A DNA stretch of 64,000 nt from assembly GCA_002070185.1 (NCBI GenBank), contig MWCT01000001.1, forward strand, positions 393,110 through 457,109, in the 5' to 3' direction. The DNA is from a candidate division BRC1 bacterium ADurb.Bin183 (GTDB lineage Bacteria > Sumerlaeota > Sumerlaeia > MWCT01). The notes under the pieces were generated by a model. It did no database searches. It was not told the origin of the DNA and saw nothing but the letters and a program-made list of their open reading frames with translations. Of this stretch, positions 44,450 through 60,597 are shown piece after piece (position 1 is the stretch's first letter; every line of letters starts with the position of its first letter). The position numbers and the translations under genes were made by a program.

Positions 44450-44985
44450 CAGAAACCTCCACACAATTAAATAGAACTGGATGTATAGAAATCCCCGCGA
44501 ATCCCTGTCAAGTGCCATTTTGGGCGAACATGTCACCCTCCTGATTCTTCAAAATAGAAAAAATAAATGTGTCCGTTGGAAGTTGAAAAATAAAAGATGG
44601 CGGGGGAAACCTGGGCATGGCTTGCGGCACACGTCGGTAGCACAAACAGACCCCTCACAATTGAATAGATTCGACCGCAAACCAAGACGCCCTGCCAGAC
44701 GTTCCGCCAGCGTCAGTCCGCCGAAAGCCGTCGCTTTTGCATCCTCAAAATTTATCTGATTGCCCGCCCCTGTTTTGATTGCTTCTTATTCACCATAGGA
44801 GACTCTTTCTTTAAGTGGTTTGTTGATTTAACTCCCTAATAGAACAGGGGTTCGGGTAGGCATTGCTATTATTTTTATCAAATTGCAATTATTTTGAAGA
44901 ATCAAGGGCATTTTTCATTTTTACAAATAACCTTTGACTCCCAGCTAATATTTGTTTATGTATAAAACGTATATTAAGGATGGGA
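44450..44985. other. Gene-free region upstream of rpmH
   Basis: This 536-bp gap holds the transposase remnant described separately (44650-44796) and the promoters of rpmH and the diguanylate cyclase gene. The part from 44850 to 44985 is AT-rich. I found no cluster of DnaA boxes (TTATCCACA), so an origin is not supported here despite the rpmH-rnpA context. Confidence 0.5.
44650..44796 (-). pseudogene. Remnant of a transposase N-terminus, frameshifted and truncated
   Basis: On the minus strand ATG 44796 opens 'MVNKKQSKQGRAIR' and hits TAA. One base back, the frame goes on as 'INFEDAKATAFGGLTLAERL' and 'AGRLGLRSNLF', then loses similarity to any protein. The pattern (basic start, then 'T.FGGL.L...L..RLGL') is that of the N-terminus of IS1380-like or related DDE transposases. 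Both the frameshift and the loss of the remaining roughly 400 residues show that it is dead. I see no terminal inverted repeats. Family assignment is by memory of the motif, so moderate at best. Confidence 0.45.
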
Positions 44986-46413
44986 ATGAACTTTTATATG
45001 TCGCTTAGAAGAAAGTTTTTTTTCAGCCACTTTTTTGCGATATTGCTCATATCTGGCAGCGTGGGCGTATATTTTTACACGAGCGCCATGAACAACCTTA
45101 TGTCGCAGCTGCGCGCCAGTCTTATGAAGAGCGCGGCTATGGTCAGCGTGATGGTGGACGCCCGCTCGCTTGATGAAATCACAACAAGAAAAGATGTCGA
45201 GCTGCCCGCTTATCAGGATTGCCTCCGCAAATTAAGAGCCTTGCGTAAAACCAACAGGGACATTGCGTATCTTTATATTATGCGCCGAGAAGGAGAGCGG
45301 GTATTTTTTGTCGTGGATTCTGATGATTCAACCAATCAGGCGCTGCCGGGCAGGGAATATGAAAAAAAACCAAAGGAACTCCTTGAGGGGTTCGTCAGAC
45401 CTTCGGCGGATAAAAAAATCACGACGGATGAATGGGGCTCCTTTCTTTCCGGCTACGCACCATTGAAAAACGGCGGCGGAAAATATCTTGTAGGATTGGA
45501 TATGCGCTCCGATGAAGTTCGGTTCAAGATGCGGCAGATTCGTCTTGCGGCTGTCATTCCGTTTGTCGGTTCCTTGTTCCTTGCCCTTGTTTTCAGCCGC
45601 ATCCTTTCAGACCGTCAGACTACGCCCATTCAGATGTTAATCTCCCGCTGCCGCTCCATCGCCGCAGGCAGGCTCGATGAAAAAGTGGACATCCGCACAA
45701 ATGATGAATTCGATGGACTCATTCAGGCTTTTAATATCATGTCCGAACGGCTTGCGGAAAGCCGGGAACATAACCGCAATTATCAGCGATCTCTTGAACA
45801 GATTAAAAACGAACTCGAGATTCGGGTTCAGGAACGAACCAGCGAATTAAACGAATTAAACAATCAGTTGGTGCAGGAAATTGACGTGCGCAAGAAGGCG
45901 GAAAATTCCCTTGCCGAGGCGGCGCGCACGGATTCCCTCACGGGCATTTTCAACCGCCGCGCCATTTGGGAGCAGCTCGAATATCACATCGTCCTGTTCA
46001 GACGTTACCAGACGCCCTTCACTCTTTTAATGTGCGACCTTGACCATTTCAAACCGGTCAATGACACGTATGGGCATGATATCGGCGATATAGTTCTTGT
46101 CAAAACCGCAGAAAAGCTGCGAGAGAGCTGCCGCAATCAGGATTTTGTCTCCCGATGGGGCGGCGAAGAGTTTCTGATTCTTCTGCCCAATACTGATATC
46201 CAAGGCGGCGCTATCGCAGCTGAAAAAATTCGGCAGAAGATTTCTGAGCAGCCTTTTGAAATCAATGACCAGAAACTCGTCATTACGGTCAGCATCGGCA
46301 TAGCCGCCTATGTTGAGGGGCTTTCCATTGACGATTGCATCAAACAGGCGGACAGCGCCATGTATCAGGCAAAACGCGAGGGGCGGAACCGCGTGGCGGT
46401 TTCATCAGATTGA
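44986..46413 (+). CDS. Membrane-bound diguanylate cyclase with HAMP domain
   Basis: 475 residues from ATG 44986 (AAGGA five bases upstream; ATG 44980 is the alternative). Layout: membrane helix at about 10-30, extracytoplasmic sensor domain to about 185 with 'DIAYLYIMRREGERVFFVVD', second helix at about 188-208, HAMP (to about 265), a coiled coil ('ELEIRVQERTSELNELNNQL'), and a GGDEF domain. The active site reads 'RWGGEEFLILLP', and the inhibitory I-site RxxD ('RNQD') stands at the normal spacing before it. It should make c-di-GMP in response to an external signal. It faces the polysaccharide genes downstream and lies 5.5 kb from an HD-GYP protein gene. Confidence 0.95.
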   Translation: MNFYMSLRRKFFFSHFFAILLISGSVGVYFYTSAMNNLMSQLRASLMKSAAMVSVMVDARSLDEITTRKDVELPAYQDCLRKLRALRKTNRDIAYLYIMRREGERVFFVVDSDDSTNQALPGREYEKKPKELLEGFVRPSADKKITTDEWGSFLSGYAPLKNGGGKYLVGLDMRSDEVRFKMRQIRLAAVIPFVGSLFLALVFSRILSDRQTTPIQMLISRCRSIAAGRLDEKVDIRTNDEFDGLIQAFNIMSERLAESREHNRNYQRSLEQIKNELEIRVQERTSELNELNNQLVQEIDVRKKAENSLAEAARTDSLTGIFNRRAIWEQLEYHIVLFRRYQTPFTLLMCDLDHFKPVNDTYGHDIGDIVLVKTAEKLRESCRNQDFVSRWGGEEFLILLPNTDIQGGAIAAEKIRQKISEQPFEINDQKLVITVSIGIAAYVEGLSIDDCIKQADSAMYQAKREGRNRVAVSSD

Positions 46414-47094
46414 TATATTTATCCAGAGTCCTTTCCGATTCTTTGCAACCTTCGTCAAAAAATCCAATCCGAAAATGGCTTGAAAACACGACATGGCTTG
46501 AATCAGAATGGGGCGCGGGCAAAGGCATCTATCTTCACATAATCAATTCTGATGAAATCTTTTTTGCTCGTAAAAAATAGATACAATTAATGAACACATG
46601 CCCAGCCATTCTCGATAATCCGACACCGTTCCAAATGTTGGGGTGGAGCGAGTTCGAGAGCGGCATTCTGAAAGATGCAGCGCCGCCATTGATGCAACGA
46701 CGCCTTGCTTCCGAGCGAACCCCTCGCCTTTGCGGCAGGTTTCATAAATAAGGGCGCGCCGAGTAATTTCTCCCGTATAGCCCGGCATGGGCGGAGCCGA
46801 AGGAGCGGGGATAATAATACGAAAAAGTTTTATGCTTTAAATAGGTTTTGCGCCCCTCGCTTAGAAAAAGACATTTGACAAGGCAGCCCTTGAACGCACA
46901 AATATAATATAGATTAGTTTGTAATAACAAAAGTGTCGCGAGGCAATTGAAATATATACCGCTGGGAAAAAACAAAATTCAGCGACCCGTTCGCCGCATC
47001 CCCTATATCGTCCAGCAGGCGCATGGCAGGCGAGTAGATAGTTTTGGGAAGTTAAGGCATTAAAGGCGGGGCAAAGATTTTTAGCAGACAAGAT
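46414..47094. other. Gene-free region, 681 bp
   Basis: No convincing gene is present. Short frames occur on both strands but show no family pattern, start site or codon bias. The middle (about 46600-46850) is GC-richer and may be an eroded gene or intergenic element; the end (46880-47094) holds AT-rich sequence with TATAAT-like text, a likely promoter area for the polysaccharide operon. Confidence 0.5.
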
Positions 47095-48060
47095 ATGAAA
47101 TCGCAAAATGTAAAATATTGTGGAATCGCTGCCGCATGCTCCATCGCGGTCATGGCATTATTTTTATATTATATTCTGCCCGCTCTCATGTCTGCTTTTG
47201 CATGGGGCATTGCGGAAAATTATGAGTTTATCAGCGACGAACTGGCGGAGCATGGGAAGTTTGCTAAGGCGGAAAAAATCCTGCGCGCCGCCGCTAAAAA
47301 ACGCCCATGGGATTTTCGCCCCCATCAAAAACTGGGCATGCTTTATCTTGCGCAGGAGGGCAAAAAAAAGCAGGCGATTGAATCATTGGAAGCCGCCGCC
47401 GCGCTTGCATGGAAATCAACCGGCTATCCGGAAATGCTCATCCCGCTTCATCGCGAACGCCTTGCATCGCTTTATACCGCGCTGGCGCGCGAATTGGACG
47501 CCGTCCGCCAAAAAAAACCGGAGGCGTTTTATTTCGCCTATGCCGATATGCTTTCCCCTTCTCATGACTCTAAAACACGGGCAACGTGGAACCAGCCTGC
47601 AAAAGAGGCGCCTCTCCTAAAAGATGATTTCACGCTCAACGATATAAAGGATTACGAGTGCGTTGCCGGCGCGCCGCAAGTTAAAGATTCGAGCGGTCTG
47701 AAAAACCTCAATGCCGCGGGAATCTTTTTTCAAACCGGTTTTATTGAATATGAATTGACCCGCGCCGAGGCAAAGGATAAGACGCTCTATATTTTGGCGC
47801 GCGGGACGCCTGCTTTTGGAATTTATCCGATTATTGATTTGAAGATTGATAATGAGCGCGTCGCCTTCATTTATGTGGACAGCCCCGAATGGCGTTTTTA
47901 TCCCGTCGCCGCGCCGAGAACATCCGCCCGCCAGAGATGGACGCTTTCCTATTTCAATGACGGCGCGCTGCCCATCCTTGACAATGCGGGCAAGCGCATC
48001 GGATTATCAGAAGATCGCAATTTGATGGTGGGCGGAATCTTTAAACTTATCGAAAATTAA
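47095..48060 (+). CDS. Membrane-anchored TPR protein with carbohydrate-binding-like C-terminus
   Basis: 321 residues. A single membrane helix at about 10-35 is followed by TPR-like helices (about 50-160: 'GKFAKAEKILRAAAKKRPWD', 'QEGKKKQAIESLEAAAALAW'). Residues about 190-315 form a beta-rich domain with 'LYILARGTPAFGIYPIIDLK' and 'WTLSYFNDG', the pattern of the xylan-binding (CBM36/60-like) module in which 'FND' closes the calcium site. The call for this domain is tentative. It begins an operon with a Wzz-like and a flippase gene (gaps of 8 and 7 bases), so a role in polysaccharide assembly or sensing is likely. Confidence 0.7.
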   Translation: MKSQNVKYCGIAAACSIAVMALFLYYILPALMSAFAWGIAENYEFISDELAEHGKFAKAEKILRAAAKKRPWDFRPHQKLGMLYLAQEGKKKQAIESLEAAAALAWKSTGYPEMLIPLHRERLASLYTALARELDAVRQKKPEAFYFAYADMLSPSHDSKTRATWNQPAKEAPLLKDDFTLNDIKDYECVAGAPQVKDSSGLKNLNAAGIFFQTGFIEYELTRAEAKDKTLYILARGTPAFGIYPIIDLKIDNERVAFIYVDSPEWRFYPVAAPRTSARQRWTLSYFNDGALPILDNAGKRIGLSEDRNLMVGGIFKLIEN

Positions 48061-48068
48061 GGAGACGG

Positions 48069-49151
48069 ATGGTGGAAGAGAACAACTTTACATTCACTGA
48101 TATGACGCGGATATTATTGAAAAATATCAGGGGCATCCTTGCCGCCACAATTATTGTGATGCTCCTCACAGCCGTTGGGAGCCTGTTAATGCAAAAAAAA
48201 TATAAAGCGTCCGCCACGCTGCTCATCAACGAATCCAAAATGGGCATAGACGGTGTCATATCAAACTACTTCAACCCGCGATTTTATTACACGTTTGAAG
48301 GACTCGTCAAAAATAAAGAACTCGTCCGCCGTGCCATAAAAAAATTCAATCTGGATAAAAAACCATACGAATTAAGCGTCGAAGCCGTTTTAGAAAATGT
48401 GCACGTCGCCCTTGTGCGCAACACGCGCCTCATCAATCTGACCGTTGATTTCCCCGACCCGATACTTGCGGCGGAGATTGCGAACTTTATTGCGCAGGAA
48501 GCGGTTGCGCTCAATATGGTTATAAACAACACAGACGCCGTCCGCGCCCGCGAGTTCATGTCCGCGCAGGTGAACGCCGTTGCCGAGAGTATGAAGGCAA
48601 ACGAAATAAATCTCCGCGAATATAAACAGCAGGCAAAAATTAAAGAACTCGAAACAGATGTGGAAACATTGCTCTATAACAAAGCCGACCTTTCGCTTCG
48701 CCGCTCGGACGCCCTCATCAAAAAGGCGGAATTGGAAGCGGCGGGCAAAACAGCCGGAACCGTTTCCTCTTCCGGCGGCGCCGCAACATCCATTCAGGAA
48801 CTCGACGCCCTTATCGCCTCGCTTGATAAAATGATTTCCGAAGTGGAAAAAACGTTGGACGAAAAGCAAAAACTCCTTGCCGAACGCGAACTCCGCATCG
48901 AGGCGCTTCTTGCCCTATTTGATGCCGACCAGACCTCTTATGCTAAAATCAACACACGCATGGGCGAGAACAGCACCCGCGTCTCCGAAAAATTCCAAGA
49001 AATCCGCATCATTGACTCCGCCATCCCTCCCCATTATCCCGAATGGCCGCGCAAAAAACTCATGGTCATCATCGCCGGCGTCCTTGCCTTTCTATTCTCC
49101 TGCGCCTTTGCTTTGATGAAAGAACAGATGCGCACCCAATCCCTGTCATGA
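48069..49151 (+). CDS. Wzz-type polysaccharide chain-length/co-polymerase protein
   Basis: 360 residues. Membrane helix 1 at about 20-42 ('GILAATIIVMLLTAVGSLL'), a large periplasmic part with 'YKASATLLIN' after the first helix, long coiled-coil stretches (about 150-290, including 'ISEVEKTLDEKQKLLAEREL'), and helix 2 near the end preceded by 'PPHYPEWPRKKLMV', the proline-rich motif of the Wzz/PCP family. It controls the length of a surface polysaccharide. No tyrosine kinase domain follows, so it is the kinase-free type. The flippase gene starts 7 bases later. Confidence 0.9.
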   Translation: MVEENNFTFTDMTRILLKNIRGILAATIIVMLLTAVGSLLMQKKYKASATLLINESKMGIDGVISNYFNPRFYYTFEGLVKNKELVRRAIKKFNLDKKPYELSVEAVLENVHVALVRNTRLINLTVDFPDPILAAEIANFIAQEAVALNMVINNTDAVRAREFMSAQVNAVAESMKANEINLREYKQQAKIKELETDVETLLYNKADLSLRRSDALIKKAELEAAGKTAGTVSSSGGAATSIQELDALIASLDKMISEVEKTLDEKQKLLAERELRIEALLALFDADQTSYAKINTRMGENSTRVSEKFQEIRIIDSAIPPHYPEWPRKKLMVIIAGVLAFLFSCAFALMKEQMRTQSLS

Positions 49152-49158
49152 TTATAAT

Positions 49159-50595
49159 ATGAAAAATTTTGAAAAGCGATACCCTTCTTTATTGAGTCAA
49201 ACCCTCCGCGGGCTTAAAATCACAACATCCATGACCGCGCTCAAGACCCTCGTGGATGCCGGTTGCCAACTTGTCCTTGCTCGGCTTCTCTTCCCTGATG
49301 CCTTTGGCATACTTGCGTTTCTTATTTCCGCCGCCGGCTTTTTTTGCTACATTGCCGACCTTGGCGGAGGCAAATACATCATCCAGAAAAAAGACCTCAC
49401 GCAGGAAGACGCGGACACCGTTTTCACCTTTGAACTCCTTGTTGGCGTCGGGCTGGCGCTGGCATGGCTTCTCGGCGCGGGATGGATTCTCCATATCCTT
49501 AAAAAAAACACCCTGCTGCCCTATGCCGCCCCCTTTTCGCTCTGGATTGCGCTTGAGCGATTCCAACTCCCGCGCTTCATCCTTGAGAAACGCATGGAGT
49601 TCGGCAAATCCAATATCGCAACTTTTCTGGGCATTCTGGCGGGCTCGGTGATTTCCGTTTTCCTCGCCTTGCGCGGATGCGGCGTTTACAGCCTCATCAT
49701 CGGCTTAATATTCCGCAGCCTTGTCACGGCGCTTTTCGTCTGGCATTACAGCGACATGAAGCCGCGCCTGAAATTCCGAGCCGACCTCGCCGCGCCTTAC
49801 ATGCGCTTCGGACTTCCCCTTGCCGTCACAAGCCTGTTTGTGTTTTACTACTGGAACGTAGATTACATTATTGTCGGCAAATTTCTGAACGACACGCAAC
49901 TGGGATATTATTACATCGCCTTCAAGTTCCCGCATTACATACTTCAATTGCAGTCGCTTGTTTCAACTGTGGTGTATCCCGCGTTTGCAAGGACAAAAGA
50001 TGACGAACAATTGATGCGGGGGTTCAAACTGGCGACGAAATATTCCAGCGCGCTGGCGTTGCTGCCTTGCGTTGGCGTGCTGGCGCTGGGGGAGGGGATT
50101 GTGCGTTATGGACTGGGCGAGAAATGGATGCCCGCGTTGCGCCCGTTTCAGATATTCACATGCCTTGCCGCCGTCCGAATGATTACCATCCATTGGTATG
50201 ATGTTTATTTGAGCAAAGGAAAGACGCGCGTCATGCCTTGGCTGAGCGTTTCCAATGCGCTCGGCGTGACGTTTGCCGCATGGGCGGGCGCGCGCTGCGG
50301 AACCCTGACGTCGGTGGCGCTGGGCGTGGCGGCGGTTAATTTTGTTGTTATCTTATTTGCCGTCAATGTCCTGCTAAAAAAAGTCCTGCCAGTGAGTTAT
50401 GTCCAACTATTATGGAAACCCGTCCTCGCCGCCGCCGCAACGTTCCTCTGTGCAATTCTGCTCAACAGGGCGTTAAAAGATTCGGGAGGAATGATTTGCT
50501 TTTCCATTAAAATGATATTTGTTATTCTCATATACGGCGGAATATATTATTACCTTGACCGCCGCTCGCTTCACCATCTTAAAACCAGAATATGA
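49159..50595 (+). CDS. Wzx-like oligosaccharide flippase
   Basis: 478 residues with about 12-14 membrane helices. 'KTLVDAGCQLVLARLLFPDA' and 'FGILAFLISAAGFFCYIADL' near the N-terminus and 'VDYIIVGKFLNDTQLGYYYI' with 'SLVSTVVYPAFARTK' in the middle are the conserved features of the polysaccharide synthase/O-antigen flippase family (MOP superfamily). It moves lipid-linked sugar repeat units across the inner membrane. The 3' third of the gene (50325-50595) is duplicated at 51799-52069. Polymerase and glycosyltransferase genes of this pathway are not adjacent. Confidence 0.92.
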   Translation: MKNFEKRYPSLLSQTLRGLKITTSMTALKTLVDAGCQLVLARLLFPDAFGILAFLISAAGFFCYIADLGGGKYIIQKKDLTQEDADTVFTFELLVGVGLALAWLLGAGWILHILKKNTLLPYAAPFSLWIALERFQLPRFILEKRMEFGKSNIATFLGILAGSVISVFLALRGCGVYSLIIGLIFRSLVTALFVWHYSDMKPRLKFRADLAAPYMRFGLPLAVTSLFVFYYWNVDYIIVGKFLNDTQLGYYYIAFKFPHYILQLQSLVSTVVYPAFARTKDDEQLMRGFKLATKYSSALALLPCVGVLALGEGIVRYGLGEKWMPALRPFQIFTCLAAVRMITIHWYDVYLSKGKTRVMPWLSVSNALGVTFAAWAGARCGTLTSVALGVAAVNFVVILFAVNVLLKKVLPVSYVQLLWKPVLAAAATFLCAILLNRALKDSGGMICFSIKMIFVILIYGGIYYYLDRRSLHHLKTRI

Positions 50596-50639
50596 GCATT
50601 TCCATTTCATTTTAACTCATAAATGCGCAATGATGAAAG
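50325..50639 (+). repeat. Flippase 3' end repeat, copy 1
   Basis: These 315 bases (last 90 codons of the flippase gene plus 44 bases of downstream sequence) recur without gaps at 51799-52113, with about ten mismatches (roughly 97 percent identity by eye). Copy 1 is part of the intact gene. Confidence 0.95.
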
Positions 50640-50640
50640 A

Positions 50641-50760
50641 AAAACGCTTCTTGACAGAGACATCATTTTTAAGATAGGGATTAGTCAATCTCGGTGAGGA
50701 AAGTCCGGGAACTCCATTCACACAGATAATTGATGTAAATCTTGATGTGGCGAGGTGTTG
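50641..50760 (+). repeat. Leader repeat, copy 1, with promoter-like and RNase P RNA-like elements
   Basis: This 120-bp segment recurs at 52150-52269 with six mismatches. It begins near a perfect -35 hexamer TTGACA (50651-50656). After about 25 bases comes GATTAGTCAATCTCGGT, then GAGGAAAGTCC at 50696-50706 and GGGAACTCC to 50715. GAGGAAAGTCC is the nearly invariant CR-I element near the 5' end of bacterial RNase P RNA, and AGTCAATC.C resembles the preceding P2 strand. No CR-V counterpart is downstream, so it is not a full RNase P RNA. The end (GCGAGGTG, 50751-50758) supplies the ribosome-binding site of the next gene. Confidence 0.6.
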
Positions 50761-50763
50761 CGA

Positions 50764-51729
50764 ATGAAAATACAACATTATAATATCGTTTATATTTTCC
50801 TGTTTTTGTTTGTAATGCTTTCTTTCCATGCGCTTCCAAGCGGGAAAATCGTCGCCAAAATGGGCGATGCAGTTTTAACTTATGACGAGGCAACATCTAT
50901 TGTTAAATATAAAAAATCCTTTTCGTCTTTTTTCGATAATAACATTGATGAAAATATTCTGCTGAGCATGGTTATTAAAAATTGGGCGCGTGAAACGGCT
51001 TTAAACAATCTTATAGAAAAATACAATATTGCCATTTCTGAAGAAGAAGTAAAATATGAATGGACGGAGATCAAGGGAAAATTGGCGGCTCAAAATGGCG
51101 GAAACCTGCCCCGTGAAATTTTCGAACTGAAGGGAAATAACAGGTTGAGCGAAATTCTGAAAAAAGCCCTTCTCGAAATTAATCCCAAGGGAGAAGTGTT
51201 GATAAACCAAGATACCGAACATAAAATTTTCGAACTTTTCACAAAAAATCGTAATGAGCTGAAAGAGGCGTTGCCAAACAAAATGGATCGTGAGTTATAT
51301 ATAACATTCAAGACTTTTATTGTTTCGTTTAGAAAACCGGAAGATATTGACTATTATTTTAACGCCCTCCCCGATAATTGGGAGGATATGTTCGATTCAT
51401 CGCGAGAAAGCATCTCCCGAGATATTAAAATTCAAAAGTTGAAAGAGATTTTGGCGTTGCAACGTCTTCCGGAAATTGATATGGAAGACTTCAATCAGTA
51501 TATGGGAAACGCCGCAAAAGGCAAAGGCATCGAGGCGCGAAAAGAGGCATTCAAAGAATATTTTTTACTCTTCGCCAATTACAATCTTGAAGATATTATT
51601 TATGAAGAGATCAGGAATCAATTGCAGATTCCGGATAAATCTATCTTTGAACAATTTAATCAGCAATACCCAAAGCCTGCCAGAGACGCAATAAAGCCGT
51701 CGTCTTCCGCCGTTTCCAGAGATAAATAG
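50764..51729 (+). CDS. Secreted protein with SurA/PpiC-like N-terminal region, no visible PPIase domain
   Basis: 321 residues from ATG 50764, six bases after GAGGTG. A signal peptide (about 1-24, 'IFLFLFVMLSFHALPSG') is followed by 'KIVAKMGDAVLTYDEATSIV', very like the first strand-helix of SurA/PpiC-type chaperones ('..VA.VG...IT..E'), and a long helical body rich in Lys, Glu and Asn. No parvulin motif is visible, so it may be a chaperone-type domain without isomerase. The tail is Pro/Ser/Ala-rich. Base composition is much more AT-rich than the upstream polysaccharide genes, suggesting separate origin. Confidence 0.7.
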   Translation: MKIQHYNIVYIFLFLFVMLSFHALPSGKIVAKMGDAVLTYDEATSIVKYKKSFSSFFDNNIDENILLSMVIKNWARETALNNLIEKYNIAISEEEVKYEWTEIKGKLAAQNGGNLPREIFELKGNNRLSEILKKALLEINPKGEVLINQDTEHKIFELFTKNRNELKEALPNKMDRELYITFKTFIVSFRKPEDIDYYFNALPDNWEDMFDSSRESISRDIKIQKLKEILALQRLPEIDMEDFNQYMGNAAKGKGIEARKEAFKEYFLLFANYNLEDIIYEEIRNQLQIPDKSIFEQFNQQYPKPARDAIKPSSSAVSRDK

Positions 51730-51798
51730 TCACCGCGACATCAATGACTGATAATAGAATTAGGACGATGTCCCCTGCGTTGGCGTGCTGGCGCTGGG

Positions 51799-52113
51799 CG
51801 TGGCGGCGGTTAATTTTGTCGTTATCTTATTTGCCGTCAATGTCCTGCTAAAAAAAGTCTTGCCAGTGAGTTATGTCCAACTATTATGGAAACCCGTCCT
51901 CGCCGCCGCCGCAACGTTCCTCTGTGCAATTCTGCTCAACAGGGCGTTAAAAGATTCTGGAGGAATGATTTGCTTTTCCATTAAAATGATAATGGCGATT
52001 CTCATATATGGCGGAATATATTATTACCTTGACCGCCGTTCGCTTCACCATCTTAAAACCAGAATATGAGCATTTCCATTTCATTTTAACTCATAAATGT
52101 GCAATGATGAAAG
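51799..52113 (+). repeat. Flippase 3' end repeat, copy 2
   Basis: Same 315 bases as 50325-50639. Of the roughly ten changes, those in codons are mostly silent (for example GTT/GTC, CTG/TTG, TAC/TAT, CGC/CGT); only Phe-Val to Met-Ala near the end of the gene alters protein. Confidence 0.95.
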
Positions 52114-52149
52114 GATGGCAAATATGTATCATAAATTTTAATTTTTGAT

Positions 52150-52269
52150 AAAACGCTTCTTGACAGAGACCTCATTTCTAAGATATGGATTAGTCAATCT
52201 CGGTGAGGAAAGTCCGGGAACTCCATCCACACAAATTATTGATGTAAATCTTGATGTGGCGAGGTGTTG
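52150..52269 (+). repeat. Leader repeat, copy 2
   Basis: Matches 50641-50760 with six substitutions and no gaps. TTGACA is at 52160-52165 and the GAGGAAAGTCC core with its GGGAACTCC extension at 52205-52224, both unchanged. Within it CCACA (52227-52231) could pair with TGTGG (52255-52259). Here the gene that follows uses its own downstream site (AGAGGA) rather than the repeat's GAGGTG. Confidence 0.6.
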
Positions 52270-52294
52270 TGAAGATTGATTAAAGAGGATCGCG

Positions 52295-53167
52295 ATGAAA
52301 AATAAAGTCATGCTCATTCTGGGAGTTTCGATATTATTAGTTTGTAATATCAGCTTATCGGAAGAACTGTATATCGAGACACGTTATAAACGAATCACGC
52401 AGGAAATGGAAATTCAGAATCAGGAATCCATTAAACATGAAACAGAAGGAAAATTTGCCATTTCGGATTCATCTAAAAATTTATATGTTTATCAAAACCT
52501 TGCCAATGCCTTTATCGGGGAAATTAATAAGAATAATCCGTTAACGGAAAAAGAGTTGGAACAATTTTTTAATGAAAAATATGCTCCTTTTCTTGACTTA
52601 CATAAATTAAGGGAAGAGGGAACATCAATCACTCTCGCATTAGAATCTTTTTATAATCAAAAAGAGTTGGATGAAGAGTCTTTTTACAATAAAAAGATCA
52701 AACAAACATCGCTCATACGAGTTTTCCCCTCTTTTCAACAATGGAGAAAAATGTTATCCGCTTATCAGTCTCCCAATGGCAAAAAACAAATGAATGTTGT
52801 TAAAGAATTGCAATCTCCGGAACAATACTATAAAGAATATGGTCAATATTACGCGGAGGGGGCATCAATTGAAAAACTACAAAAAAGGATGCTTGAGCAG
52901 AATAACATCAATCTCGACGATTTGAGGAAGAATTTCCAGAGTAAAAATCTTTCACTTAGGGAATTTAGGATTATTGATGATGTCGGTGCTTTGATTACAG
53001 ATGTTGCCTTAATTAGGCGAATAAGGGCAGATTTACAAGGGAACAACCCTGATCGTTTGGAAAATTTCCAAAAATGGCTTTATGAACGCGAGAAAAACAA
53101 TTCTAATCGCTTGAGCAAAGTTGGAATTGATGTTAAAAACTTGGATTTAAGCCCGATATATCCTTAA
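52295..53167 (+). CDS. Secreted protein of unknown function
   Basis: 290 residues; ATG 52295 lies nine bases after AGAGGA. A signal peptide (about 1-22, 'MLILGVSILLVCNISLS') is followed by a wholly helical, charged and Gln/Asn/Glu-rich body ('ITQEMEIQNQESIKHETEG', 'NPLTEKELEQFFNEKYAPF'). I recognise no family. Its helical, AT-rich character and position behind leader copy 2 make it a sister of the 50764 gene in style, but I see no clear sequence similarity between the two. Probably periplasmic or surface-exposed. Confidence 0.65.
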   Translation: MKNKVMLILGVSILLVCNISLSEELYIETRYKRITQEMEIQNQESIKHETEGKFAISDSSKNLYVYQNLANAFIGEINKNNPLTEKELEQFFNEKYAPFLDLHKLREEGTSITLALESFYNQKELDEESFYNKKIKQTSLIRVFPSFQQWRKMLSAYQSPNGKKQMNVVKELQSPEQYYKEYGQYYAEGASIEKLQKRMLEQNNINLDDLRKNFQSKNLSLREFRIIDDVGALITDVALIRRIRADLQGNNPDRLENFQKWLYEREKNNSNRLSKVGIDVKNLDLSPIYP

Positions 53168-53267
53168 GCGTATAAGATATGAACAAATTGTTCATCCGCA
53201 TTTTAAGGGCAATAATAACATCGCAGTCTATGAAAAGGGATGCAAAGGTATTGAATGAAAAATATAA

Positions 53268-53279
53268 GGGAGTACTCCC
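53268..53279. promoter_or_regulatory. Palindrome overlapping the ribosome-binding site of the next gene
   Basis: GGGAGTACTCCC is perfectly self-complementary and ends one base before ATG 53280. Its GGGAG is the only ribosome-binding site candidate. A GGGA/TCCC stem with a GTAC loop could hide it, or the palindrome could be a protein-binding site. Confidence 0.35.
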
Positions 53280-54260
53280 ATGTTAAAAAGAATGGTTGTT
53301 CTTATATCGGTTTTTCTTGTCATAAATATCGCCCTTTATTCACAGGAAAATATTTTAAAAGCGGGCGATATCAACCAGAAGATAGCAACTTATGTTAAAA
53401 ATATTCGCTCCGTTCCCATGAGTTTAACGCTCGATTTTTATCATGAGAAATATTTGGATTATCCGATTATTGAAAATCTTCCGGATAATATGGTGATTGT
53501 TGAAGACCCGCATTCTATCACCCGATTGGGAAAAGATGGACCGGATAAAAAAGGAACACTGAAGTGTCATTTTTCACAAGAATATAACCTTCCGTTTATA
53601 AAAACGACAAAGAAGGTAAAACTAATTATTGGAAACAATATAAATTGCTATCGCACGGAAGAGTTCCATCCTAATGAAACGGAACCTTGCCTCGTTGAAG
53701 CCTTCGACGGGACAAATACTAAGATATTGAATATCGCAGCAAATCAGTCAAACGATAAAACCAAAACAAAACTGGGCAATATATATGATGGTCCAAAATA
53801 TTTGTATCATAGATTTCATCCCATTCTGGCGTGGCTGAGAAAAGATTCTTTGGATGATTCAACCACTATGGAAAAAATGCCCGATGGCAGGCTGAAACTA
53901 TCCAAAACAAATGAAGATAATTCTTCCCAGAGCGCCATCTTATCCCCTGCCGATAACTTTATGATAATGGAAATGAAATCGGAAAGCAAAGATTCTATTA
54001 GCGAAATTACGATAACTCAAACAACAAAAGCGGGAGATTTGACGCTTCCCGCAAATTATGAGGAAAAAAATTATAGAATCGTTGACCAAAAAAAGATTCC
54101 TGCAGACATTGCCATTTATTCAAATATTACATATAAAATACTATCTAATGATGAATGTATGAAGGCATGTAAGTTCGAATTTCCTGAGGGCACAATTATG
54201 GATAAAATGAAATTTCCCTCAACAACGCCGCAATCAAACAGGCAGATACGCCATCAGTGA
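53280..54260 (+). CDS. Secreted beta-rich protein, possibly LolA/LolB-like
   Basis: 326 residues. Signal peptide (about 1-22, 'MVVLISVFLVINIALYS'). The body begins 'INQKIATYVKNIRSVPMSLT', then alternates strands ('TKKVKLIIGNNINCYRT', 'CLVEAFDGTNTKIL', 'SSQSAILSPADNFMIMEMKS'). This resembles outer-membrane lipoprotein carrier-like (DUF1571 or LolA-type) proteins, which read '...LLSPDGKFMIMEM'. The link is weak. It is AT-rich like the two genes before it, and a 113-bp gap separates it from the 52295 gene. It converges with the S74 gene. Confidence 0.6.
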   Translation: MLKRMVVLISVFLVINIALYSQENILKAGDINQKIATYVKNIRSVPMSLTLDFYHEKYLDYPIIENLPDNMVIVEDPHSITRLGKDGPDKKGTLKCHFSQEYNLPFIKTTKKVKLIIGNNINCYRTEEFHPNETEPCLVEAFDGTNTKILNIAANQSNDKTKTKLGNIYDGPKYLYHRFHPILAWLRKDSLDDSTTMEKMPDGRLKLSKTNEDNSSQSAILSPADNFMIMEMKSESKDSISEITITQTTKAGDLTLPANYEEKNYRIVDQKKIPADIAIYSNITYKILSNDECMKACKFEFPEGTIMDKMKFPSTTPQSNRQIRHQ

Positions 54261-54317
54261 TAAAACAGGGCTTTTCGCCTTTTCCAATCGTTCCTTTCCA
54301 TATCGGCAGTTTGCGTG

Positions 54318-55712
54318 TTAATCTTTTGTTTTTTGCATGGCGGATTCGAGAGCCGCTAAACGAGCTTCTAAAGAGTCAATCTGTTTTTGCTGATTGGCAT
54401 TTTGCTCTTTCAGAAAAAGAATTTCCGCTTTTTTGTTTATGAGTTTTTGGTTCAATTCCTGAATTGCCGCGGCTGCGTAAATGGTTAGCGGATAAGCATC
54501 CACTTGAAGAATCTCCCCGCCGTCGGCAAGCGTCTCGCCGCTGCCTTTGACATAATCCGGGAAAACTTCGGCGAACTCCTGCGCGATGACGTTCATGTAA
54601 CGTCGAGGCTCAATCTCAGGATGCTCTGCGAGATATTCCTTCGTATATTCAAAATCCACGAGCCGCACCTTTTCAAGCGTCTCAAGCGCGTTTTCAATAT
54701 TTTTTACATCGGTTTTGATGCGGGCATCGGAGTTGGCGAGCCAATTGCCGGCGGTGGATTTTGATGCGGCGCCTTCAACCTCGAGCATGTTGGTGGTTGC
54801 TGTGCGTCCAATGCCAACCTTGCGCTGGAAGTAGTTGTCGCTGCCAGGGACTCCAGTGAAATAGGAAGCGAATCCGATTGGGCTATTTGTGTGGCCTGCG
54901 ACGCCGGCGTTGACGCCTGAGCTGGCGTCTGCCAGTCCAAAAATAGCGCAGCCATCCGTGCTATAGTTTTCGAATCGTCCGCCGTATGTGATTCCCGAAC
55001 CGGACGATGCCTTGCCATAGATTCCACGTCCTGCATTGCTCGCCGCCTCAAAATAGCCGCCGTATGTGATTCCCAAACTGGACGATGCCTTGCCATAGAT
55101 TCCACGTCCTGTATCGCTCTCCGCCACAAAATAGCCGCCATAGCTGGGAGCCGTGCCTTGTACGGCGCTTCCGCCACTGGAGTTCCTTGAAACATTCAAC
55201 CCCGTATTCTCACCTGTGATGTTCAACATTCCGGTCATCGTGTCGCCGGTGGTGTTGACCCAATTGTCCGTTGCGGCGGGCATAAAGGCAGAGGCGTGCT
55301 GTCCGCCCAGCTGGGCTGAGTCGTGGCTGTAAAGGGCATAAGGACCTGCCGTGATTTTTTGCCGCGGCGCAAGCTTTGTATAGCCCGAGCGGTCGGCGTT
55401 TGAGACGCTGCCCGGACGCACGCTGATTTCGAGCCAGCGATCCGAACCCTTGAACCAGGAACTACCGAAATCCAATTCAGCGGAAAACAAACCGTTTGCC
55501 ACCGCAAGATCGTCCACATAAATCGGATTGGACGCCTCCCCTCCCGAGGCGGCGGTAAAAAGTAAAAAACACAGGTCGTATGTGCCATTGGCGGGATTGG
55601 CGCCATCCTTCAGTTGACCCTGATAAGTGAAAGAGGTGGATTGAGCGGCAAGATGAGCGCAGAAAAGCATCATGCAAACACAACCAATACAAACCATAAT
55701 AATTTTTGTCAT
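54318..55712 (-). CDS. Secreted protein with C-terminal peptidase S74 (endosialidase chaperone) domain
   Basis: 464 residues. Signal peptide (about 1-23) is followed by 'FTYQGQLKDGANPANGTYDL', a beta domain common in PVC-group secreted proteins. The middle (about 180-290) has glycine-rich repeats around 'GRGIYGKASS..GITYGG' that suit a trimeric beta-helix or fibre. The C-terminal part 'NSDARIKTDVKNIENALETL', 'LVDFEYTKEYLAEHPE' and 'VIAQEFAEVFPDYV' is the S74 intramolecular chaperone, which trimerises the fibre and cleaves itself off; Ser of 'NSDARIK' is the expected nucleophile. A coiled coil ends it. Likely a surface fibre or adhesin of cellular, not phage, use, since no phage genes surround it. 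Confidence 0.92.
   Translation of the reverse strand: MTKIIMVCIGCVCMMLFCAHLAAQSTSFTYQGQLKDGANPANGTYDLCFLLFTAASGGEASNPIYVDDLAVANGLFSAELDFGSSWFKGSDRWLEISVRPGSVSNADRSGYTKLAPRQKITAGPYALYSHDSAQLGGQHASAFMPAATDNWVNTTGDTMTGMLNITGENTGLNVSRNSSGGSAVQGTAPSYGGYFVAESDTGRGIYGKASSSLGITYGGYFEAASNAGRGIYGKASSGSGITYGGRFENYSTDGCAIFGLADASSGVNAGVAGHTNSPIGFASYFTGVPGSDNYFQRKVGIGRTATTNMLEVEGAASKSTAGNWLANSDARIKTDVKNIENALETLEKVRLVDFEYTKEYLAEHPEIEPRRYMNVIAQEFAEVFPDYVKGSGETLADGGEILQVDAYPLTIYAAAAIQELNQKLINKKAEILFLKEQNANQQKQIDSLEARLAALESAMQKTKD
54979..55134 (-). repeat. Two 78-bp tandem repeats in the S74 gene
   Basis: Units 54979-55056 and 55057-55134 each encode 26 residues of the form 'GYFEAASNAGRGIYGKASSG' plus 'SGITYG'. 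A third, partial unit continues beyond 55134. They keep the reading frame and are nearly identical in DNA, which suggests recent copy-number change in the fibre region. Confidence 0.8.
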
Positions 55713-56117
55713 AATAACGTCTCCTTTTATTCTTTATAATGGATTGAGTAAATCGAAAAAAAATGAGGTGTCAACATGAATCGGAAACTTATATGCGCGC
55801 ATTTGGGAAACAATGGGGATTCATGATAAGGAGAGGTTAAGGAGAAAAAAGTTCTCCTGACGATTTTTACTTTTTTGGCGAAATCGTTATGATTTACGCC
55901 TTTGGTTCTCCATGGTTTTCAAAACCCTGACTTTGATGAATGCGTATTCGGTTGGTTTCGACAATCCATAATCTTTTTTGTAATGGGAAAATCCCGATGT
56001 TGTTAATGATGTTTTGGATAAGACTCTGAAGCGCTTTGATTCTGGGGTTTTGAAACAATTAGAGCCAATCCCCTCGATTGGCTCTAATTGCTGACTCTGA
56101 TTTTTTTCCCTTATTAA
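55713..56117. other. Gene-free region with two hairpins
   Basis: No gene found. It contains the S74 gene promoter region at its left end, a small hairpin AGGAGAA/TTCTCCT at 55840-55858 (5-base loop), and the long hairpin at 56056-56090 described separately. Confidence 0.6.
56056..56090 (-). terminator. Strong 15-bp hairpin after the double-GNAT gene
   Basis: CAATTAGAGCCAATC and GATTGGCTCTAATTG pair perfectly around a 5-base loop (CCCTC on the plus strand). It lies 27 bases after the minus-strand stop at 56118. No uninterrupted T-run follows directly on the minus strand (it reads TTTCAAAACC); on the plus strand a seven-T run lies 11 bases beyond. The stem is strong enough to act as a terminator or to protect the 3' end of the transcript. 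Confidence 0.6.
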
Positions 56118-57059
56118 CTAAATTATCTTTTTCATAATCGCCATGCGGCGGGTGATGGTGAAACCCAGACGTCCATAAACGCCTTTCGCTGCGCGCTCGC
56201 CCGTCCACAAAACCCATGCGCAATGATACCCTTTGATGCGCATTTGATAAAGCGTTTTGGCGAGCAGCACCGAGCCGATGCCTATGCCCTGATAAGCGTC
56301 CGAAACGCCGAAAGGTCCAAAGTGGTCCCCCTCATATTGGCAGAAGCCGATGATTTTCCCTTTGTCAATTGCGATGATGATGCAATCCTCTCCATAGAGT
56401 CCCCGCGTGAGGTCAATCAGATTCCGCCGCGCATCCTCCAGCCACGGACCCGGCATCAGCGTTCCTTGAAATTCGAGGTAGTTGAGCAAATCTTCGCGGC
56501 GATAGAGCCGCACTTCGATGCCTTCCGCAAGGAGCGCCTTTTCTTTTTCTAAAACCTCTTTTGCAATCGTGAACTTGGAGATGGGGGCATCCATAGCGAT
56601 TGCCTCGCTGTATTCGACAAATCCGTATTTCTGGAAAAGCCGGACGCCGTCCGCATAAGCCTCTTTGTCAATACCGGGGACGAAATAGTTTGGCGTATAG
56701 GGTGCAATCAGGATTTGTTTGCGTCCTTTTTGCTTGAACCACTCGATTGAATTTTCGAGCAGCGCAGAGCCGATGCCGCGTTTGCGGAAATCCGGATGGA
56801 CGCCGAACGCCGTGATGAATCCGTCATCAGGGCGCATTCCCACGTTTTCGATGGGACGCCGCAGCGCCAGTCTTAAAGCAAATCCCGACAGACGTCCGCC
56901 TTTTTCCGCAACGACAAGACTGTCCTGTTCGCGGTTGACGTCCAGCAAAACCTTGCGTTCGAACAAATTCAACGTGATGGCGTCCAGAGGCAGCGCCGCC
57001 GCCCAGAGCGCGAGCATTTCTTGCGTGTCATTTCCTGTGAACGGACGAATATTAGCCAT
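56118..57059 (-). CDS. Protein with two GNAT acetyltransferase domains
   Basis: 313 residues from ATG 57059, eight bases after AAGGAG; the frame extends upstream without need. The first GNAT domain (about 1-150) has the acetyl-CoA loop 'HPDFRKRGIGSALLENSIEW'. The second (about 160-313) has 'DAYQGIGIGSVLLAKTLYQM' and 'CAWVLWTGERAAKGVYGRLG'. Tandem GNAT proteins of this length are common, often with one catalytic and one substrate-binding half. The acceptor is unknown. Followed by a strong hairpin. Confidence 0.9.
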   Translation of the reverse strand: MANIRPFTGNDTQEMLALWAAALPLDAITLNLFERKVLLDVNREQDSLVVAEKGGRLSGFALRLALRRPIENVGMRPDDGFITAFGVHPDFRKRGIGSALLENSIEWFKQKGRKQILIAPYTPNYFVPGIDKEAYADGVRLFQKYGFVEYSEAIAMDAPISKFTIAKEVLEKEKALLAEGIEVRLYRREDLLNYLEFQGTLMPGPWLEDARRNLIDLTRGLYGEDCIIIAIDKGKIIGFCQYEGDHFGPFGVSDAYQGIGIGSVLLAKTLYQMRIKGYHCAWVLWTGERAAKGVYGRLGFTITRRMAIMKKII

Positions 57060-57139
57060 GTTCAAAACTCCTTTAATCGCATAGATTAAACGACTCCCTA
57101 CGGCGGTTGGTTGAATCATTCAATAAAAATGTTCGCGTC

Positions 57140-57769
57140 TTAAAATTTTATTGCTATTTCCCTTGCGCGGTTTTGAGCCGCGTCCAATTGCTCTTTCATT
57201 ATCTCTCTGCCGCGGGCGTCCATCGGTTGGGCGTTAATGAAGGTTATATCGGTCACGCCCACAAACCCGAATATTGTGCGGAGATATGGTTCCTGATAGT
57301 CAAGCGCGCAGATGGGGCTTTCGGGAGTATAATCGCCGCCGCGGCTTGTTATCACAACCATCTTTCTGCCTTTGGCAAGTCCATCAACGCCCTGTGCTGT
57401 GTATCGGAAAAGATATTGCGGTTGAGCAATCACATCAATATAATGCTTGAGGCGATAGGGAATGCTAAAATTCCACATAGGCGTGGATATGAGATAGGCA
57501 TCGGCGGAAAGAAAGCGGTTGATATGCTGTTTGATTTCAAGCCAAGAGGGTTTTAATATATCCGAAATCTCGCCGTCCGCCATCAGCAGATATTTCCCGT
57601 CTGTGACATCGCGGGTAATTTCCGGCAACGGCTCCGCGAAAACATCAAGAGTTTCCACAGTCCAATCGGGATGCGTCTCGTTGAATTTTTCTAAAAAGGC
57701 GGAGGCGACAATAAGAGTGCGGGATTTTTCGCCCCGCATGGCAGCGCAAATATGAAGCAGTTTTTTCAT
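57140..57769 (-). CDS. FMN-dependent NADH-azoreductase/quinone reductase-like flavoprotein
   Basis: 209 residues, normal for AzoR. Flavodoxin-like fold: 'ICAAMRGEKSRTLIVASAFL' (phosphate loop region), 'DAYLISTPMWNFSIPYRLKH' and 'ITSRGGDYTPESP' match the FMN-binding loops of AzoR/NAD(P)H quinone oxidoreductases. It should reduce quinones or azo compounds with NADH, protecting against electrophiles. Start ATG follows GGAGGTTG about 6 bases upstream. The GNAT gene follows on the same strand after an 80-bp gap. Confidence 0.9.
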   Translation of the reverse strand: MKKLLHICAAMRGEKSRTLIVASAFLEKFNETHPDWTVETLDVFAEPLPEITRDVTDGKYLLMADGEISDILKPSWLEIKQHINRFLSADAYLISTPMWNFSIPYRLKHYIDVIAQPQYLFRYTAQGVDGLAKGRKMVVITSRGGDYTPESPICALDYQEPYLRTIFGFVGVTDITFINAQPMDARGREIMKEQLDAAQNRAREIAIKF

Positions 57770-58106
57770 TTTTCAACCTCCATGCTTATAAATATTAAGG
57801 TATTACGCATGATGTTTGAACCGCAAGAGTTTTTTATAATGTATAAAAAGGGCGAGATTGCTTAATATCCTGCATCAATTTCTAATTGTTTCAGGTCTAT
57901 GTTCATGCACATCGGCGCGGCTGGATTGGCGAAGGTAAAAAACTTAACTTCGCAAGCTTCTTTTGCAAACGCTTCAAATGCCGCAAACCGACAAAAAATT
58001 TTTGATGATTGGGCAAAACTGCGCCCGCTTCATTCGTAAATATTAATATTGATATTGCCCGCGCTTTTGCTACTTTGAAATACATATTTGGTAATATGAC
58101 GCCAAC
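57770..58106. other. Gene-free divergent region, 337 bp
   Basis: It separates the azoreductase-like gene (minus) from the membrane gene at 58107 (plus). It is AT-rich near 57780-57850 and 58040-58090, consistent with two divergent promoters. A 60-codon minus frame at 57903-58085 lacks a ribosome-binding site and family resemblance. Confidence 0.5.
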
Positions 58107-59408
58107 ATGAAAAAAATGTTATTCGAAAAACCATCAGCGCAAATAATTATCATCGTTCTTTTGGGCGGAATGCTCTTGGCTGCCCCTTTTGGGAAATTCA
58201 TCCTGCCCTTTGTCGTTCTGGGCGCGGCGCTTGCCGCCATTTTATATGGACATCCCGAACAGCGGAAATTTCTCGTTCGCTGGATGCTTGCCGCCCTTGC
58301 CGCGCGCCTCCTTTTTTTGGCAATCGTTCAATTTGCCCCTGTAACCCGCGAGCCCTTTCCATTCTTTTTCCTTGATGACCAATCGTATCACAGATGGTCG
58401 AAAGAAATCGCCCAAAGGTGGCATCAGGGGGAGATGCCGCGCGTCTGGACTGATGCCGAAGTCGGCACGCTCCAGACCGGTTATTATTATTTTATTTCCG
58501 GAATTTATTATGTTATGGGCGCGAATCCCATTTTCCCGCTTTTGCTCAATTCCCTCTTCGGCTCTCTTTTGTGCCTGTTGGTTTTCCGTTTGGCGGAGCT
58601 GCTGCTCGATGACAGGGCAGCCCGCTGGTCTATGATTTTGTGCGCCGTAAATCCCGTGTTCTGGTTCTGGTCATCCTTCCTTTTAAAAGATACCCTGCTG
58701 GTGGTATTTTTCGTCCTTGCCTATGTGCTTTACCTCGAATGGCGGCGCAAAAAAAATCCCATCATTTTTGCGGCGCTTTTGCCGACGGCATATTTTCTTT
58801 TTTTAATCCGCGTCCCGTCTTTGATGGTTGTTCTGGCTGCCATCTTCATCTATGAGCTGCTTGAGAGTCCGCGAAAAGGTTTGCTTTTAGTGCTGGCGGG
58901 GACAGGGGCGGCTCTTGCCGTTGCGGGGCGCGCTATTAATCTGGCGCGCGATGTGGAGGATCAAATCATCTACTCATTTTTGAACGCCCTGCCGGATGCG
59001 GGGCTGACGTATCGCGGTGCGTTGAAATATCTGGCGCGCGGAGTGCCGAGATTGTTTCTTGCGCCCTACGGCTGGGTGTTTGCTCATTATTTCACGCCGT
59101 TTTATTTCCTCTATATCGGACAGTGGTTTTTTTATCTGTATCTCTTTCCCCACGCCTTGGCGGGTTACATCCGCCTCATTGGCGAAAACAGGCGCACGGC
59201 TTTGTGGCTGATTATTCCCGTTGTCATCAAATGCTATTTGTATTTGCTGACGGAATTGTCGGCGCGGCACATGCTGGAGCTGATGCCGCTTTTCACTGTC
59301 GCCGCCGCTTATGCACTGCGCCGTCCGCTCACGCAAAGGTTCATGCTTCTATACTACATCAGCCTTGTGGCTTTCATGCTTCTCCATTTGTTGACTTTGG
59401 TGTTATAA
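58107..59408 (+). CDS. GT39-like membrane protein
   Basis: 433 residues with about ten membrane helices. After the second helix a periplasmic loop carries 'FFLDDQSYHRWSKEIAQRW'; the Asp pair is the expected GT-C catalytic motif. 'WSMILCAVNPVFWFWSSFLL' and 'FLIRVPSLMVVLAAIF' are typical helices of the PMT_2/dolichyl-phosphate-mannose transferase superfamily. Acceptor unknown; possibly glycolipid or protein glycosylation with the GT4 enzyme encoded next door. Its last 6 bases overlap the convergent GT4 gene. Confidence 0.78.
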   Translation: MKKMLFEKPSAQIIIIVLLGGMLLAAPFGKFILPFVVLGAALAAILYGHPEQRKFLVRWMLAALAARLLFLAIVQFAPVTREPFPFFFLDDQSYHRWSKEIAQRWHQGEMPRVWTDAEVGTLQTGYYYFISGIYYVMGANPIFPLLLNSLFGSLLCLLVFRLAELLLDDRAARWSMILCAVNPVFWFWSSFLLKDTLLVVFFVLAYVLYLEWRRKKNPIIFAALLPTAYFLFLIRVPSLMVVLAAIFIYELLESPRKGLLLVLAGTGAALAVAGRAINLARDVEDQIIYSFLNALPDAGLTYRGALKYLARGVPRLFLAPYGWVFAHYFTPFYFLYIGQWFFYLYLFPHALAGYIRLIGENRRTALWLIIPVVIKCYLYLLTELSARHMLELMPLFTVAAAYALRRPLTQRFMLLYYISLVAFMLLHLLTLVL

Positions 59409-60554
59409 TTTTTTGCTTTGAATTGTTTCGCGATAAAGGTCTTCCATTTTTCGCGAGCAGACCTCCCAGTTATCATTATGGCGGATGATGTCCCAGTTTT
59501 GGGCGGATGCCATCTTGCGCCATGCCGGATTTTTCAAGGCAAAAACCGTCTTATCCGCAATTGAACGGGAATCGCCGATGCGAATATACAAACCGTTGCC
59601 GCCGTCTGTGATTCGCTCGCGATAGGCGTCCAGAGCGGAAACAACAGGCGCGGCGCCGCATGCCATCCCTTCCAAAATAGAGATGGAGAGCATATCCGAG
59701 CGGGTCGCCGAGATAAACACATCCGCCAGATTCAAAAGCAGCGCCATCCGCTCCGCCGTCACTTTTTCCTCGATGAAATGCGTTCTATCGTTTAAGCCGC
59801 ACCGCCCGACAATCTGCCTCATTTCGTTCAGATAATCCTGCGTTCCCGACCCGCGGAGGATGATGAAATGCGCCTTGGGAACTTCACCCGCGATAAGCGG
59901 CAGGGCGTTGATAATGTCCCGTCCTCCCCAATATTCCGCCAGCGTCCGGTTGCTGATGACAATCGGCGCATCCTGCGGTATAGCGAGTTCGTTCCGTATC
60001 ATTTGCGCCTCGTTTTTTTTATACGGATGGAAAATATTCAAATCAATGCCCCATGAAAATCCCTTCGATTTTTCTTCCGGAATGCCGAATACGGTTTTCA
60101 AATAATGTCCCAGCCCCGGATAATTTGTGGTGATGCGCGTAGCTGCTCGCAAACCCGATGTCACAAGAAACCGCGCAATCCGCGATTGAAACGGGTCAAA
60201 GAAAATATCGTTTCCCCACGGCGTCAGAATCTTGGGGTAATTGCCGCATCGCGCCAGCGCGAAGCCATACGCCCGCGCCTCCATTGCATGGACGATGTCC
60301 GGCTTGAAACGGGCGACTTCTTTCCGATATGGAATCCATTTGAACGAATCATTGCCATAGGGTTTTGGGTATATCTTAAATGCGACGATTGTCGTTAGAA
60401 GGTTCATTTGCGGGTTAATCACCCGTACGCCAGCAATCTCCTCCTGCGCCGCGGAATCCGATAGCACAAGCACCTCGTGCCCCAGCCCCGCAAAGTGGCG
60501 AACCCATCGCTGGGAGTGTGGATTATTCACCTCAAGGAGATAGCAGATTTTCAT
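59403..60554 (-). CDS. GT4-family glycosyltransferase
   Basis: 383 residues from ATG 60554, which gives MKICYLLEVNNPHSQRWVRH; an upstream ATG at 60569 is possible. GT-B fold: N-terminal domain with 'HSQRWVRHFAGLGHEVLVLS' and C-terminal domain with 'NRTLAEYWGGRDIINALPLI' and the E-x7-E motif in 'SILEGMACGAAPVVSALDAY'. It transfers a sugar from a nucleotide sugar to a lipid-linked or surface glycan in the cytosol. Neighbours: the C1B-type peptidase gene lies upstream on the same strand (43-bp gap), and the GT39-like gene converges. Confidence 0.93.
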   Translation of the reverse strand: MKICYLLEVNNPHSQRWVRHFAGLGHEVLVLSDSAAQEEIAGVRVINPQMNLLTTIVAFKIYPKPYGNDSFKWIPYRKEVARFKPDIVHAMEARAYGFALARCGNYPKILTPWGNDIFFDPFQSRIARFLVTSGLRAATRITTNYPGLGHYLKTVFGIPEEKSKGFSWGIDLNIFHPYKKNEAQMIRNELAIPQDAPIVISNRTLAEYWGGRDIINALPLIAGEVPKAHFIILRGSGTQDYLNEMRQIVGRCGLNDRTHFIEEKVTAERMALLLNLADVFISATRSDMLSISILEGMACGAAPVVSALDAYRERITDGGNGLYIRIGDSRSIADKTVFALKNPAWRKMASAQNWDIIRHNDNWEVCSRKMEDLYRETIQSKKL

Positions 60555-60597
60555 AATCCGCCCCACCATTTATTAACAACTGGCAACGAATAACCGC

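Follow-up and report, generated by a model that had tools for sequence, protein, structure and literature searches.

Why does the 3' end of a flippase gene stand again 1.5 kb downstream of the intact gene, and how did this second tail come to be shortened internally and to lie beyond a gene for a secreted protein? The question was followed in a window of 64 kb, the whole stretch of DNA analysed (G000:C1:393110-457109), from a Sumerlaeota genome of 3.41 Mb (3,406,210 bases; 39-contig assembly, 94.9% completeness). We lean towards the answer that the locus is the scar of additive (insertion-duplication) recombination, probably with the allele of a related strain, followed by two deletions. The Sumerlaeota paper PMC8092238 treats rates of gene gain, loss and duplication, and such scars are unmentioned in the passages concerned; no literature on the flippase locus was found by title or opening of abstract, a level at which absence is unproven. 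Features are collected in Table 1.

Table 1 Features of the flippase locus and of the two similar relics. Positions are those of the window unless a genome or locus is named.
Feature	Position	Strand	Description
Flippase gene, intact	49159-50595	+	Wzx/MOP family, 478 aa; Pfam PF13440, E 5.8e-58
Repeated 23 bp	50068-50090	+	Recurs at 51776-51798, where copy 2 begins; holds the first TGGCGCTGGG (50081-50090)
Segment absent from copy 2	50091-50324	+	234 bp (78 codons); second TGGCGCTGGG (50315-50324) at its end
Copy 1 of flippase 3' end	50325-50595	+	Within the intact gene
Leader copy 1	50596-50763	+	TTGACA 50651-50656; RNase P-like 14-mer 50696-50709; Shine-Dalgarno-like GAGGTG 50752-50757
g1	50764-51729	+	AT-rich, secreted, mainly helical protein, 321 aa, 36.7% G+C
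Spacer	51730-51775	+	Unique, 46 bp, from g1 to copy 2; left junction
Copy 2 of flippase 3' end	51776-52069	+	Truncated, without the 234 bp; shared part 97% identical to copy 1
Leader copy 2	52070-52272	+	TTGACA 52160-52165; 14-mer 52205-52218; orphan GAGGTG 52261-52266 without the g1 ATG
g2	52295-53167	+	AT-rich secreted-protein gene, 290 aa, 33.7% G+C
g3	53280-54260	+	AT-rich secreted-protein gene
Esterase relic	G000:C1:515556-515768		Truncated copy of gene start, 213 bp, 95% identical; intact gene 517751-519214
SPOR-TPR relic	L031:398-607 and 2114-2323		Family-mate G002, contig C504; gene end and start of next gene, 210 bp, 95%

The flippase gene closes a run in which it is preceded by a TPR-protein gene (47095) and a gene for a chain-length protein of the Wzz/GNVR type (48069); its match to the NCBIfam MOP flippase model (8.4e-46) lies under that model's curated cut-off. 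No flippase homologue was found in either family-mate at 1e-20; relatives with 37-40% identity occur in five genomes from two other families of the class. Relatives of the Wzz protein were found only in G006 and G015 (nine other genomes searched), in both sharing a contig with the flippase relative.

The 23 bases at 51776-51798 equal those at 50068-50090 with no mismatch and occur at just these two sites in the window; thereafter copy 2 resumes at 50325 of copy 1, with 234 bp skipped and the frame kept. The 10-mer TGGCGCTGGG, found at both ends of the skipped segment in the intact gene, has a single instance in copy 2 (51789-51798), so that the same short repeat bounds the missing segment and one repeat is retained. 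All five aligned homologous flippases carry the 78 codons, so the difference is due to a deletion in copy 2 rather than an insertion in copy 1. Since 10-mers occurring twice in the flippase ORF make up just four position pairs, two of them overlapping, the shared 10-mer at both deletion ends is not due to chance. The copies flank the AT-rich secreted-protein gene g1, at 36.7% G+C against 51.6% in the flippase. The original prediction had described the 23-bp identity with its run-on from 50325, the 234-bp loss between 10-bp repeats and the position of the copies around such a gene, and these descriptions hold; its right boundary (50639/52113) falls short, the repeat resuming past a 35-bp indel and running to 50763/52272. 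Judged on its sequence, a repeat of such size cannot be a chance match. The open frame at 51785-52069 should not receive a separate gene annotation, and copy 2 is probably not expressed as a flippase.

The duplicated block thus takes in, as had gone unmentioned before, the whole intergenic leader of 168 bp, up to the starts of two different genes; the repeat reaches the g1 start codon, and at g2 it stops about 20 bp short of the gene. The leader carries a TTGACA box and a Shine-Dalgarno box. Its two copies differ by substitution at 9 of the 168 non-coding positions that align, and 35 bp of copy 2 (about 52114-52149) are without counterpart in copy 1. Exactly two copies are present in the genome assembly; no full-length match was found in 98 other genomes, and the four short matches there (26-41 bp) are fragments, one of them lying where a distant genome has its gene for RNase P RNA. 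In copy 1 GAGGTG stands six bases ahead of the g1 ATG, and the G004 relative of g1 also reads GAGGTG-N6-ATG, with 14 of 16 bases in agreement with the g1 start by eye, which is in part what any ribosome-binding site would give; g2 has a Shine-Dalgarno-like box of its own, AGAGGA. Because this arrangement is shared by g1 and its G004 relative, and the box in copy 2 lacks an ATG, the leader would seem to belong to g1; the orphan GAGGTG of copy 2 likewise suggests that a g1 once stood behind that copy.

Both leaders contain the exact 14-mer GAGGAAAGTCCGGG, inside a longer stretch invariant between the copies; it resembles conserved region I in the RNase P RNA of bacteria. The leader as an RNase P RNA was ruled out, no Rfam RNase P model (RF00010) giving a match in the covariance-model test; the real RNase P RNA gene of the genome lies at C1:531909-532316. 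Folding of the leaders was no better than that of shuffled sequences (z 0.02 and -0.08), and the 24-mer around the 14-mer was not found in viral contigs.

The genes behind the leaders have few relatives. g1 shows weak SurA N-terminal similarity, under the curated cut-off; among 40 other genomes it has one clear relative (G004, another family of the order; 33% identical), directly downstream of a different secreted-protein gene, and two more matches to long frames (E 0.005-0.007). No homologue of g2 was found among the 40 relatives' genomes. g3 has two relatives in 40 other genomes, 70% (family-mate G002) and 29% identical, both behind SPOR-TPR-like and Cys-rich genes (the Cys-rich gene of G002 codes for 160 aa); in the gene called SPOR-TPR here, TPR alone was matched by Pfam, and this gene was not found in the host genome (G000) at 1e-5. 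The sparse and differing relatives and neighbours of g1-g3, together with their low G+C (34-37% vs 51.6% in the flippase), point to a patchwork of accessory secreted-protein genes at 50.6-54.3 kb. Two other ideas were set aside: that g1 and g2 are diverged duplicates of one gene, for which sequence-level support is absent (shuffle z 0.02), and that the ancestral order g2-g1 can be taken from G004, where the neighbour of the g1 relative is no proven relative of g2. Local z was 4.0 for g2 against the G004 relative of g1 and 2.4 against the neighbour of that gene, both weak signals; structure models for the comparison of g1 and g2 (mean pLDDT 37.8 and 55.0) were too poor in quality for comparing. 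g1 and g2 had no match in viral scans. Further along the window, at 54979-55134, a 78-bp tandem repeat (92% identical) lies in a gene with an S74-peptidase (endosialidase chaperone) domain.

The differences between the coding tails bear on where copy 2 came from. In 281 bp there are 9 differences, namely five isolated silent substitutions and a group of four altering two adjacent codons (F454M, V455A); the synonymous/non-synonymous count is 5 silent and 2 replacement codons of 7. Under pure neutrality, 5 or more silent codons among 7 have a P of 0.012-0.026; under the fairer null, with copy 2 dead from the split and copy 1 under selection, P is 0.05-0.14. The silent majority seen in the original prediction is therefore real and its strength was overstated.

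Two similar relics were met elsewhere. The esterase relic has 11 differing codons, 9 of them silent; it leads into DNA that carries an HNH endonuclease gene on the opposite strand, and the intact esterase follows (L078:15485-17650 = G000:C1:515485-517650). The truncated esterase copy bears a different, AT-rich signal peptide. The SPOR-TPR relic of G002, with 5 of 7 differing codons silent, sits behind the g3 relative, and after it comes sequence that resembles the promoter and start of a further SPOR-TPR gene. Since these two relics look like the flippase case, the process does not seem confined to the flippase locus. Pooling the three relics gives 19 silent codons out of 25 (P 2e-5 to 1e-3 against the dead-copy null, with codons treated as independent and with relics met post hoc while following leads, not as a planned sample); on these sequences the silent bias would become convincing only when pooled, the relics being post hoc. 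A repeat scan for background, covering 1,197,953 of the 3,406,210 bases in two passes with slightly different cut-offs, yielded tandem, intra-protein and lower-identity (below 85%) repeats and, apart from these, the pairs of the flippase and the esterase and a further one of 112 bp. The 112-bp pair is a direct repeat, 94% identical, with a spacing of 6.9 kb (L110:6218-6329 and 13092-13203).

Under additive recombination, donor DNA with a flippase 3' end, a promoter-bearing leader and a gene behind it would have recombined via shared sequence, and a second flippase tail and leader would have been added beside the first with no replacement. Copy 2 most likely arrived as a working allele from a related strain, with a divergence of a few per cent; the 234 bp are gone from it, through recombination between the two TGGCGCTGGG repeats that may date from the same event or later. 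Its own g1 would have been lost exactly at the start codon, as the orphan Shine-Dalgarno box suggests, so that g2 came behind the leader; leader copy 1 may have lost its 35 bp. A likely consequence is that each leader could supply a promoter and 5' UTR to a single secreted-protein gene, with the flippase tail of copy 2 as a presumably functionless passenger. Homologues of DprA and ComEC are present in the genome; both are widespread and no proof of competence.

An in-genome tandem duplication, in which a block reaching from the flippase interior to behind g1 was doubled, the 234 bp and the second g1 were deleted later and no foreign allele took part, is possible, at clearly lower probability. 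It makes a donor unnecessary, agrees with the direct-repeat geometry and with a lost second g1 at the orphan Shine-Dalgarno box, and has a parallel in the tail copy of G002, which adjoins another SPOR-like promoter region in the manner of a tandem array. The silent bias of the tail is less expected under it; at P 0.05-0.14 the flippase locus alone does not reject it, and at 2e-5 to 1e-3 the three relics pooled speak more strongly. Taken by itself, the silent bias at the flippase would not decide between tandem duplication and import.

That two metagenome strain variants were fused into one contig is improbable, even in an assembly of this contig number and completeness. A divergence of 3-5% is typical of strain variants, and the 23-mer common with the intact gene adjoins both joins. 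Assemblers, however, require shared words of about 21 or more bases, and no shared word of at least 21 bases spans either join (10 bp at the internal join, scattered bases only at the left one); nor does the window contain any N. We give very little credence to a mobile element inserted in the flippase 3' end and supplying a substitute for that end, a habit of some integrative elements that enter gene ends. An intact gene upstream, a displaced tail downstream and AT-rich cargo in the middle would fit such an element, but Pfam showed no integrase, transposase or relaxase in the ten proteins of 44980-60569, g1-g3 included, 50596-54260 has no match to plasmids or phages, and the restored stretch, at some 450 bp, is much longer than an att core.

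If import of a related strain's allele is the true origin, truncated, silent-biased allele copies would let past additive recombination be read off the genomes of an uncultured phylum, and would flag entry points of new secreted-protein genes; if that reading is wrong, the locus is an ordinary duplication scar. It is a long shot that the flippase end and leader, the latter perhaps including the RNase P-like motif, form a recurrent landing site, a homology anchor for swapping or stacking AT-rich secreted-protein genes, with other Sumerlaeota gene ends acting alike.

Among known systems, deletion between short direct repeats removes a segment and retains one repeat copy; here 234 bp are gone and one 10-bp repeat is kept, without any difference from the ordinary case. 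Campbell-type single-crossover integration leaves an insert with the homologous segment directly repeated on either side. The direct repeats around the insert are alike here, the added DNA being bounded by repeats of the target as in Campbell-type and merodiploid cases, whereas no circular donor or plasmid backbone was seen. In homology-facilitated illegitimate recombination, foreign DNA is added through homology at one end and an illegitimate join at the other (PMC6382021, PMC3240628); here, by contrast, the microhomology join is the internal deletion of copy 2. Comparison of the flanks gave no run of microhomology at the join of the added DNA (51775/51776), so the locus is not placed in that class. 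In natural transformation, imported DNA that is partly repeated can give duplicated chromosome segments instead of replacement (Johnston et al. 2013, PMC3784515). The flippase locus is like such merodiploids in having duplicated segments in place of replacement; it differs in that the pneumococcal units are of about 100-900 kb with IS-derived repeats, against about 1.5 kb here, in an organism of putative competence. Additive recombination with subsequent deletions is an already known mechanism, and the locus is most likely a recombination scar of an ordinary sort and not a new kind of element.
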